A stretch of 64,000 nt of DNA, taken from assembly GCA_017407995.1 (NCBI GenBank), contig JAFQVM010000030.1, positions 1 to 64,000 of the forward strand. Reading direction: 5' to 3'. The DNA is from Clostridia bacterium (GTDB lineage: Bacteria > Bacillota > Clostridia > Oscillospirales > Acutalibacteraceae). The notes below the pieces were generated by a model that did no database searches, was not told where the DNA came from, and was given only the letters and a program-made list of their open reading frames with translations. A program made the position numbers and the translations under genes. Positions within the stretch are counted from its first letter, which is position 1. Each line of letters opens with the position of its first letter. Below are positions 2-13,090 of this stretch, in pieces.

Positions 2-256
2 ACATATCTTGAAAAGGTTGACGGCGCAACAGATGCAACACTCACTCCCGACGAAAAATGCGAGTATATCTGTATCGTGACTTACGATGCCGGCAGATAT
101 GAACTCTCCGACAAGGTTGAAATCACAGACCTTACACCTTACTGCACTTGCCAGTGTCATCAGGGCGGTATCGCAGGCTTCTTCTATAAAATTGTTCTCT
201 TCTTCCAGAAACTTTTCGGTATGAATAAGGTTTGCTGGTGTGGCATTGCTCACTAA
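2..256 (+). CDS. C-terminal end of a probable surface protein with a Cys/His-rich tail (partial)
   Basis: An open frame runs from the window edge to a TAA at 254-256 (84 residues). The first half reads like the last strands of an Ig-like or Fn3-like extracellular domain (YICIVTYDAG, then LSDKVEITDL). It is followed by a cysteine cluster (CTCQCH), a Gly-rich turn, an amphipathic aromatic helix (FFYKIVLFFQKLFG) and a closing CWCGIAH. I remember tails of this layout (CxCxCH, FFxKLFGxN, CxCGxxH) at the C-termini of large secreted proteins of gut Clostridia, but that is memory and not a search. The function of the tail is unknown to me. The N-terminal part lies outside the window. Confidence 0.75.
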   Translation, partial: TYLEKVDGATDATLTPDEKCEYICIVTYDAGRYELSDKVEITDLTPYCTCQCHQGGIAGFFYKIVLFFQKLFGMNKVCWCGIAH

Positions 257-8910: not shown

Positions 8911-10023
8911 ATGGACACATACCATGCAGGTCTTTATCTACACATACCCATATGCCGCAGTAAATGCCCATACTGCGATTTCTACTCACTGCGTGCTTCA
9001 CAAGGTGTCGAGGAAAAATATTTATCAGCACTTATAAACAAGATAAAGTCCCTATCCCGAATATACTATAATTCATTTAATTCTGTTTATATAGGTGGCG
9101 GCACACCATCAGTTTTAGGAACTCAAGCGCTTAGCGAAATTATCAAAAGCGTTAAGGATTCATTTCCTATAGAAAACGACAGTGAAATAACCGTTGAATG
9201 CAATCCCTTTGATGCTCAGAAAGATGATTTTGATTTTGAACTTTTAGCCATGGCAGGTGTGAACAGAATATCGATGGGAATGCAGTCTGCAAATGACAGT
9301 GAGAGACGGACTCTCGGCAGACTAAGCAACACTTCCATGGTAGGAAAGGCAGTAAAGAGGGCTCAGGCGGCAGGAATACAAAATATTTCTCTCGACCTTA
9401 TGCTCGCCATACCCGACCAAACTGCCGACACCCTTAAGAAGAGTATTGATTTCTGCGTCGAAACAGAAGCAAAGCACATCAGTGCATATCTTTTAAAAAT
9501 CGAAGAAAACACAAAGTTTTATCAAATGCGAAACTCTCTCAATTTGCCAAATGAAGATGCCGCTTGCAACCTTTATTTCACAGCCTGTGATGAACTTGAA
9601 AAAGCGGGATATATGCAGTATGAAATTTCAAACTTTGCAAAAGCGGGTTTTGAAAGCCGCCACAATCTAAAATATTGGAACTGCGACGAATATTTAGGCA
9701 TAGGCCCGTCTGCCCATTCTTTTTGGAACAAAAAAAGATTTTATTATGAGCGTGATATTGAGAAATTCATCAGCGGCAACGACCCCATTGATGACGGTGA
9801 CGGTGGAAGTTTTGAGGAATATGCGATGTTGCGACTCAGATTAACGGACGGATTAATTTTTGATGATGTTTTAAAAAGATTCGGACACGGTATACCTGAA
9901 TTCATGCTTGATAAAGCTCGATTGTTTGAAAAAAACGGACTCACGAAGGTAACGCCGGACCGCATAGCTCTGACAAGAGAAGGTTTTTTGGTTTCAAACG
10001 CCATAATAGCTGAACTTTTATAA
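8911..10023 (+). CDS. hemW: Radical SAM protein HemW (coproporphyrinogen oxidase-like)
   Basis: A 370-residue protein. The CxxxCxxC cluster motif CRSKCPYC (C15, C19, C22) carries the [4Fe-4S] cluster. It is followed by YIGGGTPS, the GMQS segment and the HemW hallmark HNLKYW. HemW is a heme chaperone rather than a true HemN oxidase; many Clostridia carry it next to lepA or the heat-shock genes, but here it stands alone. AAAGGG precedes the ATG by about 8 bases. It ends in a very long hairpin. Confidence 0.93.
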   Translation: MDTYHAGLYLHIPICRSKCPYCDFYSLRASQGVEEKYLSALINKIKSLSRIYYNSFNSVYIGGGTPSVLGTQALSEIIKSVKDSFPIENDSEITVECNPFDAQKDDFDFELLAMAGVNRISMGMQSANDSERRTLGRLSNTSMVGKAVKRAQAAGIQNISLDLMLAIPDQTADTLKKSIDFCVETEAKHISAYLLKIEENTKFYQMRNSLNLPNEDAACNLYFTACDELEKAGYMQYEISNFAKAGFESRHNLKYWNCDEYLGIGPSAHSFWNKKRFYYERDIEKFISGNDPIDDGDGGSFEEYAMLRLRLTDGLIFDDVLKRFGHGIPEFMLDKARLFEKNGLTKVTPDRIALTREGFLVSNAIIAELL

Positions 10024-10070
10024 AGAGAACAGCCGATGCATTGCTTTTTTGCATCGGCTGTTCTCTTTAT
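10022..10070. terminator. Bidirectional terminator between hemW and the small exported protein gene
   Basis: A 19-bp perfect stem (10022-10040 / 10050-10068) with a T-rich loop. T-rich stretches follow on both strands, so it can serve both convergent genes. Confidence 0.85.
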
Positions 10071-10084
10071 ACATAGGAGGGGAT

Positions 10085-10357
10085 TTAATCTGCAATACCG
10101 TGTAAAACATCTATACCAAAAAGATAAGCGTCGAAGTATGTCACCCTATGCGTATCGTTTTCGGGCATAAAACTGCCCTCTATATCGAAGTAATATCCCA
10201 ACCCGACATAACGGCCTGAGCCGCCGTCGTCAGCAGTTTGAGTAGGCACACAAAAAATCGGCTTTTCAAAATCGTTGACTCTTGAAAAATCAACAGCGGC
10301 AACTATACCCCAAAGTAAAATTAAAACAACTAAAACAGATATTATTATTTTCTTCAT
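10085..10357 (-). CDS. Small membrane-anchored or exported protein, unknown function
   Basis: A 90-residue protein. MKKIIISVLVVLILLWGIVAAV (1-22) is a signal anchor or uncleaved signal. The rest is a small extracytoplasmic domain with KPIFCVPTQTADDGGSGRYVGLGYYFDIEG, which resembles conserved hypothetical proteins of Clostridia that I remember only by this Gly/Tyr-rich pattern. It begins 10 bases after the serpin stop, with GGTGAT before the ATG, so it should be the last gene of the sigma-factor operon. One cysteine lies in the exported part. No function is assigned. Confidence 0.8.
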   Translation of the reverse strand: MKKIIISVLVVLILLWGIVAAVDFSRVNDFEKPIFCVPTQTADDGGSGRYVGLGYYFDIEGSFMPENDTHRVTYFDAYLFGIDVLHGIAD

Positions 10358-10367
10358 ACTATCACCG

Positions 10368-11645
10368 TTAAAAATCTATCTGTGCGCCTATAAACAACGG
10401 AAGTCCGCTCTGAGTATCTATTATTGCATAAACAAACGGTCTTGTAAGTCTAACTTCAGGTGGCGGGTCCATCGGAGCTGACATTGCATCCACTGCAACA
10501 GCGGTAACAGCACCTGCCCTTGTACCCTTCTCAGCAACCTCAATAAATGTTTTGTGTATAACCTTTGATATATATATCGGCATTTCACCCTGCGCTGTAC
10601 CCAAGCGTGAAAAGTCAGCTTTATGTGCGTTAAAGGCGTCTTTCATTCCCATGTCAACAAGGGTGTCGTTGAGTTCATTTGAATACTCCGTCTTGAACTT
10701 CGGCATCTGAGTTATTACTTTGCAGTCCTCCGCAGAGTTGACGGCTGTTAAGAACTCTTTACCGTCAAGATTTTTGACAAAATCTTTAATATCAACACCC
10801 TCATCGGGCAAAATAGCTGCAAATCTGAATCTGTCACCCTCATAGGACTTCAAAAAGCCTTTGGCGTTACTCATTTTTATATAGCCGTATTCCGACGAAT
10901 ACATATAGGAGACGTTTTTATTTTTGCCGTTGTATGTTGTGAATTTTCCATCTCGCACACAGTTATCAGTATACGGAGTCCACCACTTTGCTTCAAAGCT
11001 GAGGGCGTTTATGATATACATAATATTATCGTTTGAAATTTTGTCTATTATTTTTTCAATCATGCCGCCCGTGTTCTTTTTTACCCATGAGTTTATGTCC
11101 TTGACGGTATTACTCTTTGAAAAATCTGCACTGTATATTCCCGCATCAAAGAAATCGGCACTCTTTTGTAAAAAACTCTTTTCCACAGTAATCCTGCCAT
11201 CACCAAGCCAAAGTGAATTTGCAGACTTCAGCTCGCTGTCCTCGCCTGCAACAGCATCAAGATAGGCTCCGAGATAGGCATTAAGTTCATCACACGCAAG
11301 CCCTCCAAGCGCTTTCTCCATCTGTGATAACGTTTTTTCATCAGCACCGTTTTGTGTAATTGCAAGCGCCGTAAGCACCGAAAGCGGCGATACAAGCGTG
11401 TTTTTATCAGTTTTGAGTTCATTTTTGAATAACTCCACCGAAAAGTTCGCCGCTGCTTCTGCAAATATAGCATCGGGTGCCTTCGTGACAACATCTTCTT
11501 TTTCTATATTTTTCAGCAAATTCTGTGTCTTTCCGCTACTCTTTGGAGTGTCCTTAGTTGTAGAATTACCATCACAAGCCGAAAGACCAAACAACATACA
11601 CGGTGCAAGAAGCATGCAAATTATCGCTGATATTATCTTCTTCAT
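10368..11645 (-). CDS. Serpin-family serine proteinase inhibitor, predicted lipoprotein
   Basis: A 425-residue protein. It opens with a lipoprotein signal ending in LSAC (C24), a Ser/Thr/Lys-rich linker (about 25-55), then a full serpin fold (about 60-425) with NSLWLGDG, NALSFEAKWWTPY and the closing RPFVYAIIDTQSGLPLFIGAQ. The hinge EKGTRAGAVTAVA (372-384) has the small residues expected of an inhibitory serpin. Counting from E372 as P17 puts P1-P1' at M388-S389. It should sit outside the membrane and trap elastase- or chymotrypsin-like proteases. Start: AGGAGG is 7 bases before the ATG at 11645; an upstream in-frame GTG overlaps the Shine-Dalgarno. Confidence 0.94.
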   Translation of the reverse strand: MKKIISAIICMLLAPCMLFGLSACDGNSTTKDTPKSSGKTQNLLKNIEKEDVVTKAPDAIFAEAAANFSVELFKNELKTDKNTLVSPLSVLTALAITQNGADEKTLSQMEKALGGLACDELNAYLGAYLDAVAGEDSELKSANSLWLGDGRITVEKSFLQKSADFFDAGIYSADFSKSNTVKDINSWVKKNTGGMIEKIIDKISNDNIMYIINALSFEAKWWTPYTDNCVRDGKFTTYNGKNKNVSYMYSSEYGYIKMSNAKGFLKSYEGDRFRFAAILPDEGVDIKDFVKNLDGKEFLTAVNSAEDCKVITQMPKFKTEYSNELNDTLVDMGMKDAFNAHKADFSRLGTAQGEMPIYISKVIHKTFIEVAEKGTRAGAVTAVAVDAMSAPMDPPPEVRLTRPFVYAIIDTQSGLPLFIGAQIDF

Positions 11646-11659
11646 AAAACAACCTCCTG

Positions 11660-12403
11660 TCACTCTTTTATTATCTCAATGGGTTTTGTTTTATCGTAAT
11701 TTTTCTCATAAAGAGGAAGCATCATATGGTAAGCTTTGCCGTCGGAAACATCCTTTTCATTTCTCTCCACTATGATTTGAAGTGCATTATCTGTTTGAGT
11801 CACCGTTTTAAAACCATAACCATTCGTGTGTATTGCAATATAAAATATTCCGTCAAACGGGTCAACATAAAAATCATAAAAAGAGTCTCTATCCCTAAGA
11901 TTATTCTCTTCAAAATAGTTCTCAAGTTCCGACCATCTGTCTATAATTTGAGCAAAAACATATGGTTCATCTGTTTTCGCATTCGATTCAAACATTCGAA
12001 TACACAAATAATCAGTAGTTTTTATCGGTGCACCGTCTAACGTTTCCGCATAGGTTTCAATATTCTGAACAACTGCACCGTCTGACTGACTATTTGGAAG
12101 CTGTGCTTGATTTTCTGCAGCCTCCTCCCGAAAGTCATTCGCAGTTACATCTGTTTGTGCAACATCCTGTATTTCATCTTTATCCATGTTATTTCTATGG
12201 ATTCCATCAGGAGTTGCTGCATCGCTGTCTGTTTTTTGTAGACTCGGTAAATCAAAGAAACCAACTGAGAGTATCGCTGTCAAAATAACTACTGCCACAC
12301 ATGGCACAATAACAGCTATCCGCCGTTTTTGGAGCTTTATATGTCTTTTCTTTGCTTCTGCTCTTATATAAACTTCACTTTTAAACTCTTCACTGTTCTT
12401 CAT
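11660..12403 (-). CDS. Single-pass membrane protein, probable anti-sigma factor
   Basis: A 247-residue protein with a charged N-terminal cytoplasmic segment (about 1-28), one transmembrane helix (IAVIVPCVAVVILTAILSVGF, about 30-50) and a C-terminal extracytoplasmic domain of about 190 residues. The domain begins with a disordered Asp/Asn/Gln-rich stretch. No zinc-binding anti-sigma motif is visible. The assignment rests on position: the start at 12403 overlaps the ECF sigma gene by 14 bases, and GGAGGG precedes it. A longer frame start upstream would lie inside the sigma gene without a ribosome site. The serpin follows after 14 bases. A sensor role is inference. Confidence 0.65.
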   Translation of the reverse strand: MKNSEEFKSEVYIRAEAKKRHIKLQKRRIAVIVPCVAVVILTAILSVGFFDLPSLQKTDSDAATPDGIHRNNMDKDEIQDVAQTDVTANDFREEAAENQAQLPNSQSDGAVVQNIETYAETLDGAPIKTTDYLCIRMFESNAKTDEPYVFAQIIDRWSELENYFEENNLRDRDSFYDFYVDPFDGIFYIAIHTNGYGFKTVTQTDNALQIIVERNEKDVSDGKAYHMMLPLYEKNYDKTKPIEIIKE

Positions 12404-12938
12404 AGCAAAAGCCCTCCTTCTCCAGCTCTGCTTTAAGCGCTTGCTTTGCTCTGTAAGTGAGATTGGCAAGCTGCTTTTTGCTTTTGTGCATTATTTTCGC
12501 AATTTCATCGTTGCTGCACTCCTCAAAGAAAGTAAGATACAGCACATTTCTGTAATCAGCAGGTATTTTTTCCATAGCATTCAACAGCATCTCCGAGTTC
12601 TCCTGCTGAATAACTCCGCTCAACAAATCACTTTCATACGGCTCATATATTTCAGTTTCGCTCGGCAACTCCCGCTTACGGCGCAGAAAATCAACGGTTT
12701 TATGACGTGCGATTGAATATATGTATGTTTTAAGCGAACTTTTAAACTTAAATCTGCCCGGATGCACCAAAATTTCGACAAACGTATCCATAGCTATGTC
12801 CTGTGCTGTCTCTGCGTTTCCGACATAACCCATTATAAAAAATATCAACTTTTCCCGATAAGCATCCATTATTTCATCAAAAGCGCTTTGGTCGCCCTGA
12901 AGAAAACGGCGGTAGCTACTTTCACCGTTATCCAACAT
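12390..12938 (-). CDS. ECF-type RNA polymerase sigma factor
   Basis: A 182-residue protein with sigma region 2 (AFDEIMDAYREKLIFFIMGYVGNAETAQDIAMDTFVEIL, then LKTYIYSIARHKTVDFLRRK) and region 4 (IPADYRNVLYLTFFEECSNDEIAKIMHKSKKQLANLTYRAKQALK). That is the two-domain layout of extracytoplasmic-function sigma factors. Start: GAAAGGA lies 10 bases before the ATG at 12938, whereas the first in-frame ATG (12962) precedes that site. It heads a tight operon with an anti-sigma-like protein, a serpin and a small exported protein, all plausible members of its own regulon. Confidence 0.93.
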   Translation of the reverse strand: MLDNGESSYRRFLQGDQSAFDEIMDAYREKLIFFIMGYVGNAETAQDIAMDTFVEILVHPGRFKFKSSLKTYIYSIARHKTVDFLRRKRELPSETEIYEPYESDLLSGVIQQENSEMLLNAMEKIPADYRNVLYLTFFEECSNDEIAKIMHKSKKQLANLTYRAKQALKAELEKEGFCYEEQ

Positions 12939-13060
12939 ATAGGACCAGTCCTTTCGAGGCAAAATTCAGCCTTTCAACCATATAGTCGCAGAAAAGTATT
13001 GTTTTTCTCACCAAAATTTTAGTTTTTTTATAAATTTATACATTTTAAACCAATCACAAA

Positions 13061-13090
13061 CGGCGCAGAGTCATCTGCGCCGCATATTTT
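13061..13090. terminator. Hairpin downstream of GH84
   Basis: CGGCGCAGA-GTCA-TCTGCGCCG. The better U-tract (ATATTTTTA) is on the plus-strand side; on the minus strand only TTTGTG follows. It is still the only strong stem between GH84 and the upstream edge of the sigma operon. Confidence 0.5.

Follow-up and report, generated by a model that had tools for sequence, protein, structure and literature searches.

A 64,000-nucleotide stretch of DNA from a Clostridia bacterium, a relative of gut Clostridia (GenBank assembly GCA_017407995.1, contig JAFQVM010000030.1, positions 1 to 64,000; here called the window) carries a minus-strand run of four genes, which encode an extracytoplasmic function (ECF) sigma factor, a single-pass membrane protein, a lipoprotein serpin, and a protein of 90 amino acids (aa). 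We find that the sigma factor, the membrane protein, and the serpin are a recurring module, of which the window holds a "split" form. In relatives, the serpin domain is fused to the membrane sensor itself, and these fusions make a functional tie of sensor and serpin likely. On balance, we consider it probable that the four genes are one autoregulated ECF unit: a membrane anti-sigma factor would be inactivated by a signal at the cell surface, most likely a protease, and the freed sigma factor would make the serpin.

The coordinates agree with the layout given in the original prediction, in which four minus-strand genes first overlap by 14 bases and are then spaced by gaps of 14 and 10 bases. 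The ECF sigma factor (182 aa, 12390..12938 (-), ATG at 12938, stop at 12390) is recognized by both Pfam and NCBIfam. Overlapping it by 14 bases is the gene of the single-pass membrane protein, a putative anti-sigma factor (247 aa, 11660..12403 (-), ATG at 12403). The lipoprotein serpin follows after 14 bases (425 aa, 10368..11645 (-), ATG at 11645; PF00079), and the small membrane-anchored protein after a further 10 bases (90 aa, 10085..10357 (-), ATG at 10357). The prediction had also given each gene its own Shine-Dalgarno sequence; by reading, AGGAGG is strong before the second and third genes, and the signals before the first and fourth are weak.

Recurrence of the module in related genomes

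We searched for serpins with PF00079 in 60 genomes (the window's own and 59 relatives), in 394 genomes of the order, and in 391 of the class, with the own genome included each time. The family was present in 21 of 60, 184 of 394, and 165 of 391 genomes, respectively. Serpins are therefore common in the order and the class, and the statement of the original prediction that they are rare in bacteria was not borne out here.

Regions around serpins were then analyzed from the relatives (20 regions), the order (60), and the class (40), together with 18 named loci from genome_contigs. The order regions were mostly the best-scoring serpin places, with some of the same family added, so that the shares of sigma-linked serpins are not unbiased. 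Linkage was scored with a profile grown from the window sigma factor, and the sigma gene had to end no more than 2.6 kb upstream of the serpin domain; clusters with less than 2.6 kb of upstream sequence were excluded, among them L047, L095, and L121, which do have a sigma factor. A co-directional ECF sigma gene lies upstream in 38 of the 127 serpin clusters scored: 1/1 in the own genome, 14/17 in the relatives, 19/56 in the order, 2/15 in genome_contigs, and 2/38 in the class, where the link is rare. As controls, an antisense sigma gene at the same upstream distance was found in none of the 127 clusters, and a downstream one in 3 of 92 (one on the same strand, two on the other). With 11 sigma-70-family matches above the cut-off in its 1.67 Mb, the own genome would give about 1 in 100 serpins a sigma neighbor by chance. 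Twenty genomes have 9 to 33 matches each at a looser threshold, so that elsewhere the chance level may reach about 2 in 100.

Serpins occur in 9 of the 36 same-genus genomes searched, and all nine have a sigma factor, an anti-sigma-type protein, and the serpin in this order; the helix of the anti-sigma-type protein was seen for eight loci, and the protein of L059 was recognized by a profile match. A further gene also lies between sigma factor and serpin in at least four of these nine loci. The original prediction envisaged a conserved order of four genes. Three-gene order stands in all nine other serpin-bearing genomes of the genus and at some loci of other families; a conserved four-gene set was rejected, because none of the 36 same-genus genomes gave a match to the 90-aa gene. 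Of the 31 split-locus serpins, 27 have a canonical hinge by regular expression, and 29 pass a loose rule for a lipobox.

Two observations were made beside these counts. At L048, L054, and L058, an extra secreted protein, partly alike by eye, stands between anti-sigma factor and serpin, and Pfam gives these proteins no name. The serpin of L041, whose record is titled Bacteroidales, has a sigma factor and a membrane protein upstream, a hint that the pairing may extend beyond Clostridia.

Serpins fused to the presumed membrane sensor

Seventeen genes in 15 genomes encode a serpin domain in one frame with a short basic N-terminus and a membrane helix, and all of them stand directly behind an ECF sigma gene. 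Ten belong to the first sample (L062, L063, L093, L095, L112, L122, L131, L139, L141, and L142), in which 31 loci are split. The other seven (L296 and L302-L307) came from a search for sigma factors of the window class with profile A2, which hit 89 of 394 genomes at an E value of 1e-30 and after which 40 more stretches were fetched. Genomes G392 and G427 have two fusion genes each, and some of the fusions, L131 and L141 among them, are almost copies of one another. Relative to the sigma stop, the fused genes start between 10 bases upstream and 55 bases downstream. In each of the 17 proteins, a single helix is predicted within the first 200 residues, preceded by 27 to 54 residues in which K+R exceeds D+E. 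This helix serves as the anchor; in class B it holds the letters AAC, but inside the hydrophobic run. Together with the lipobox of the split serpins, this means that the inhibitor stays attached to the cell in either form.

We compared the fused N-termini with separate anti-sigma factors, using profiles built from the cytoplasmic ends of the latter (14 of class A, the window's class, and 6 of class B) against 18,756 frames; for L093 and L095, no cytoplasmic profile was made. The class-A profile finds many separate anti-sigma factors and the serpin frames of L112 (8.6e-7) and L302 (3.2e-6). The fused frame of L307 came in at 0.63, which is not significant, and the other eight class-A fused frames were not listed at an E value of 1. 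The class-B profile finds L062 (4e-4) and L142 (1.5e-3) and nothing else outside its training set, missing L122 and L139. Kinship to anti-sigma factors is thus shown for four fused N-termini and is suggested for the others by position, charge, and helix.

Fusions are found with sigma factors of three classes. In a quick IQ-TREE tree, the linked sigma factors form a 27-row clade that includes the window (support 98), an 11-row clade (100), and a 7-row clade (98), with two lone rows besides; fused genes occur in all three clades, and the 7-row clade also holds unlinked sigma factors. A serpin tree was built with FastTree from 140 rows (10 of them fused), taking the first serpin per cluster and dropping domains under 250 aa. 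On it, the fused label needs at least five changes, three of them forced by well-supported branches, where a change may be a gain or a loss. The seven later fusions are on neither tree. A search of open-licence papers found no description that links a serpin to an anti-sigma factor, or of such fusions; one of these papers, PMC3990059, contains both terms.

The junction of helix and serpin may bear on how a signal would pass. An NLM-type motif, sought with one regular expression, is present in 6 of 10 fused, 16 of 31 split, and 21 of 89 unlinked serpins, a distribution that is suggestive only. The corresponding segment lies 10 to 17 residues behind the helix core in L093, L095, L122, and L142, and 47 to 83 residues behind it in L112, L131, L139, and L141; it was not found in the fused L062 and L063. 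In the first four of these proteins, the membrane might sense a rearrangement of the serpin. An AxA before the motif in L093, L095, and L122 was considered as a signal-peptidase site 1 and rejected: similar letters also occur in lipoprotein serpins, so AxA is no evidence for such a site.

Two further serpins were noted. At L064:2938-5917 (-), a serpin with a membrane helix stands behind an HxxxCxxC zinc-finger-like membrane protein (motif by eye) and an ECF sigma factor outside the main clades. At L124:3657-5801 (-), one frame joins an N-terminal Big_14 domain, a serpin, and a C-terminal LprI lysozyme-inhibitor domain, which puts two kinds of inhibitor into one protein.

The window operon and its boundaries

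The window sigma factor matches Sigma70_r2 (3.7e-11) and Sigma70_r4_2 (5.4e-11) in Pfam and scores 93.1 bits against NCBIfam TIGR02937, whose cut-off is 42.9. With sigma regions 2 and 4 only, in about 180 aa, it is of the ECF type. The original prediction had placed a promoter at 12940-13060, and this stretch does contain a promoter-like element, GTGAG-N16-TGCGACTA, at 12983..13011 (-), 44 bases before the sigma ATG. Its genus-wide form upstream of linked sigma factors is TGAG-N16-TGCGA(A/C)TA. At the ten same-genus loci, own included, it is exact in six and has one mismatch in two; L059 has two mismatches, and L048 gave no match. Shuffles of these loci are not an independent test, because the pattern was drawn from them. 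With at most one mismatch, it occurs once in the window against 0.09 expected, and at least once in 6 of 100 shuffles. The perfect element occurs once in the 1.67-Mb genome, at 12983-13010, which fits a switch that controls mainly itself. A wider regulon sought in the own genome at up to one mismatch stayed at control level, with 10 sites for the element and 12 for the reversed control. A conserved, genome-unique element before the sigma gene suggests autoregulation.

The membrane protein has the build of a membrane anti-sigma factor: its gene lies directly behind the sigma gene and overlaps it, and it has one helix and a short basic inner part. The helix is predicted at residues 29-50, 12254..12319 (-), from the best 19-residue hydropathy window (29-47), with the hydrophobic run extended to 50 by reading. 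This would leave about 28 basic-rich aa inside the cell and about 195 aa outside. The first 60 aa match other such proteins, with L094 as the best phmmer hit (4e-4), and the protein would bind and inhibit the sigma factor. It matches no Pfam family over the cut-off. The RsiV ectodomain and the RsgI N-terminal domain both exist as Pfam families, and zf-HC2 anti-sigma factors are marked by a His-Cys-Cys zinc motif; in the window protein, Pfam gave no match over the cut-off to the RsiV ectodomain, none to the RsgI domain, and none to zf-HC2. No convincing relatives of its ectodomain were found among the loci compared.

The serpin domain is complete (PF00079, 4e-85), running from residue 64 to 422 and covering profile positions 2-367 of 370. 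A signal peptide at 11574..11645 (-) ends in the lipobox LSAC with Cys24, as in bacterial lipoproteins. The hinge and reactive-center loop lie at 10440..10532 (-). The hinge, EKGTRAGAVT (P15 = G374), agrees at P17-P9 with the inhibitory consensus. Taken together with the full domain, this type of hinge fits the protease inhibitor that the original prediction had seen in the protein, and the serpin would be expected to inhibit a protease. Counting from P15, P1-P1' is M388-S389; P1 of alpha-1-antitrypsin is Met as well. The closest solved sequence is tengpin (2PEE, 2.9e-98), and the N-terminal segment QNLLKNI of the window serpin, at 11505..11525 (-), aligns to the tengpin start ANLMDRI. According to the accessible text of PMC8233489, an N-terminal tail stabilizes the native state of tengpin.

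The 90-aa protein belongs to no Pfam or NCBIfam family over the cut-off. Its gene is present in 2 of the 60 genomes, its own included; the other is G053 (1e-7), where PF00079 found no serpin. It is weakly akin (0.0066, the best untrained frame of the 18,756) to the N-termini of an exported protein family of roughly 365-500 aa that starts with DGG(S/T)R.(Y/F).ALTYK and is found at L282, L285, L287, L289, L293, and L127. Members of this family are encoded one or two positions after an ECF sigma/anti-sigma pair, which is of class A in five loci and of class B in L127. From this kinship, the 90-aa protein may be cargo of such sigma factors rather than a partner of the serpin.

Cargo of the window class is indeed varied. 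We rejected the idea that sigma factors of this class serve serpins alone, since at least 29 of 124 listed hits stand beside a serpin and others have other cargo. The figure is a lower bound, from coordinates compared by eye plus L296, and the serpin-adjacent share is at the same time inflated because profile A2 was trained on linked sigma factors. At L317:1965-4103 (+), a sigma/anti-sigma pair that is broadly of this class is followed by a subtilase (PF00082), so the class may handle surface proteolysis more widely. Two class-A anti-sigma-type proteins have large outer parts: L284:4743-6095 (-), 450 aa in total length, with no useful Pfam match, and L300:3740-5545 (-), 587 aa in total length.

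At the upstream end of the operon, a terminator-like hairpin at 13060-13083 separates the promoter element from an NAGidase-family gene; the hairpin scan of the region found 5 terminator-like sites against 2.6 expected in shuffles. At the downstream end, a perfect 22-nt inverted repeat at 10019-10071 (.) is a probable bidirectional terminator, beyond which a radical SAM, HemN-like gene lies on the opposite strand (neighbors by Pfam). Bounded by these two structures, the four-gene unit is probably transcribed alone. The Pfam scan found no histidine kinase or response regulator in the operon.

A proposed protease-responsive switch and its alternatives

In the model that we favor, the membrane protein would tether the sigma factor to the membrane until a signal arrives from outside the cell, with surface protease activity as the most likely one. 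That signal would inactivate the anti-sigma factor, probably by stepwise membrane proteolysis as for RsiV, and the freed sigma factor would read its own promoter at 12983-13011. The output would be more sigma factor, more anti-sigma factor, and a serpin, anchored by lipid, to trap the protease. Both the protease signal and the proteolytic release are drawn from analogy. The available part of PMC5014341 describes RsiV as binding and inhibiting lysozyme and as being cleaved by signal peptidase and RasP, and SigV as transcribing its own operon. In the fused proteins, the serpin would be the ectodomain of the presumed anti-sigma factor, much as RsiV is for lysozyme.

The fusions suggest a bolder version, which we put forward tentatively and lean somewhat against: serpins would act as bacterial receptors. 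In the fused form, the N-terminal tail of the serpin leads to the membrane helix, and cleavage of the reactive loop with its mousetrap rearrangement would trigger loss of the anti-sigma factor, freeing one sigma factor per trapped protease. The operon would replace the consumed sensor-inhibitor, so that the switch would count protease molecules. The split operon of the window would then be the version with sensor and inhibitor as two co-made surface proteins.

Several observations weigh against the protease-responsive switch. Most of the sampled serpins have no sigma link (19/56 linked in the order, 2/15 in genome_contigs, 2/38 in the class), and the class-A sigma family is not serpin-only, with the at least 29 of 124 hits given above. 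The window membrane protein reaches a weak 0.27 against the profile made from the cytoplasmic part only, and it has its own, unclassified ectodomain. Of the fused frames, the profile test catches 2 of 11 in class A and 2 of 4 in class B at an E value below 0.01. The hinge expression is passed by 4 of 10 fused serpins versus 68 of 89 unlinked ones; by eye, the six misses are a misplaced match in L112 and L139, the lack of Glu at P17 in L131, L141, and L142, and Cys at P14 in L062. The own genome encodes an M50 site-2 protease and a PrsW homologue; an M50 protease is present in 14 of 14 control genomes, and hence gives no support, and PrsW in 4 of 14.

The serpin could instead be plain cargo of an ECF pair that senses general envelope stress, such as wall damage or antimicrobial peptides, as one of several protective secreted products without a role in sensing. 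The varied cargo of same-class operons (the exported family at L282, L285, L287, L289, and L293, the subtilase at L317), the separate ectodomain of the window protein, and the excess of split over fused loci (31 to 10 in the first sample) speak for this. If the serpin never acted on the switch, fusions in 15 genomes and three sigma classes would be hard to understand, and we regard the cargo explanation as possible but doubtful. The split serpin might also be a co-sensor, as RseB is for RseA, sitting on the anti-sigma ectodomain as a shield until capture of a protease removes it. A shared operon, constant gene order, and the expected location of both proteins on the outer face fit such a role, as do the fusions, in which sensor and serpin can work as one protein; even so, we think it unlikely.

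A separate question is which protease the serpin meets. A microbial target, with the serpin guarding surface proteins from subtilisin-like proteases that the cell or its neighbors secrete rather than from host elastases, is somewhat less likely than not. Such guarding has been proposed for the cellulosomal serpins of Clostridium thermocellum, and PinA of this organism inhibits subtilisin-like proteases (PMC12484212 and PMC8201313, accessible texts). The subtilase beside a same-class sigma factor in L317 points the same way. A host target is favored by the P1 obtained by counting, Met as in alpha-1-antitrypsin. The available part of PMC8201313 also speaks for it: neutrophil elastase is inhibited by the siropins and by tengpin, to which the window serpin is closest among solved sequences.

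With these alternatives in view, the protease-responsive switch can be set beside known systems. As in our model, SigV/RsiV of Bacillus and Clostridioides joins an ECF sigma factor, which transcribes its own operon, to a membrane anti-sigma factor whose ectodomain binds and inhibits the enzyme it senses (PMC5014341, available part). In our system, a protease is the expected target and a serpin fold supplies the inhibitor, which the window encodes as a lipoprotein of its own. In SigI/RsgI of C. thermocellum, too, sigma/anti-sigma pairs form a family whose ectodomains are exchangeable, as far as the accessible text of PMC12484212 and PMC3413522 goes. Our system differs in its ECF sigma factor, in having a serpin rather than a carbohydrate-binding module as ectodomain or cargo, and in giving no RsgI match. 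The serpin of Bifidobacterium breve is reportedly controlled by a two-component system, a dedicated, autoregulated regulator of the kind proposed for the window serpin, with an ECF unit taking that place in the window. Tengpin, the siropins, and miropin, group T bacterial serpins, belong to the same serpin family; in the portions searched of texts on them, a sigma factor or operon is not mentioned.

What is new over the original prediction is the fusion of sensor and serpin; weaker than it held are the fourth gene and the rarity of serpins. Anti-sigma factors that both inhibit and sense an enzyme are already known for lysozyme. If our reading is true, a suicide-inhibitor ectodomain would be a new sensing principle, with the irreversible rearrangement of a serpin as the transmembrane signal, and it could account for the way in which these Clostridia adjust serpin production to the amount of protease. 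The purpose of bacterial serpins would also become testable by reporter, with the sigma factor reading out serpin engagement. An inhibitor fused to a membrane sensor in relatives suggests that bacteria may use antitrypsin-type inhibitors as protease detectors.

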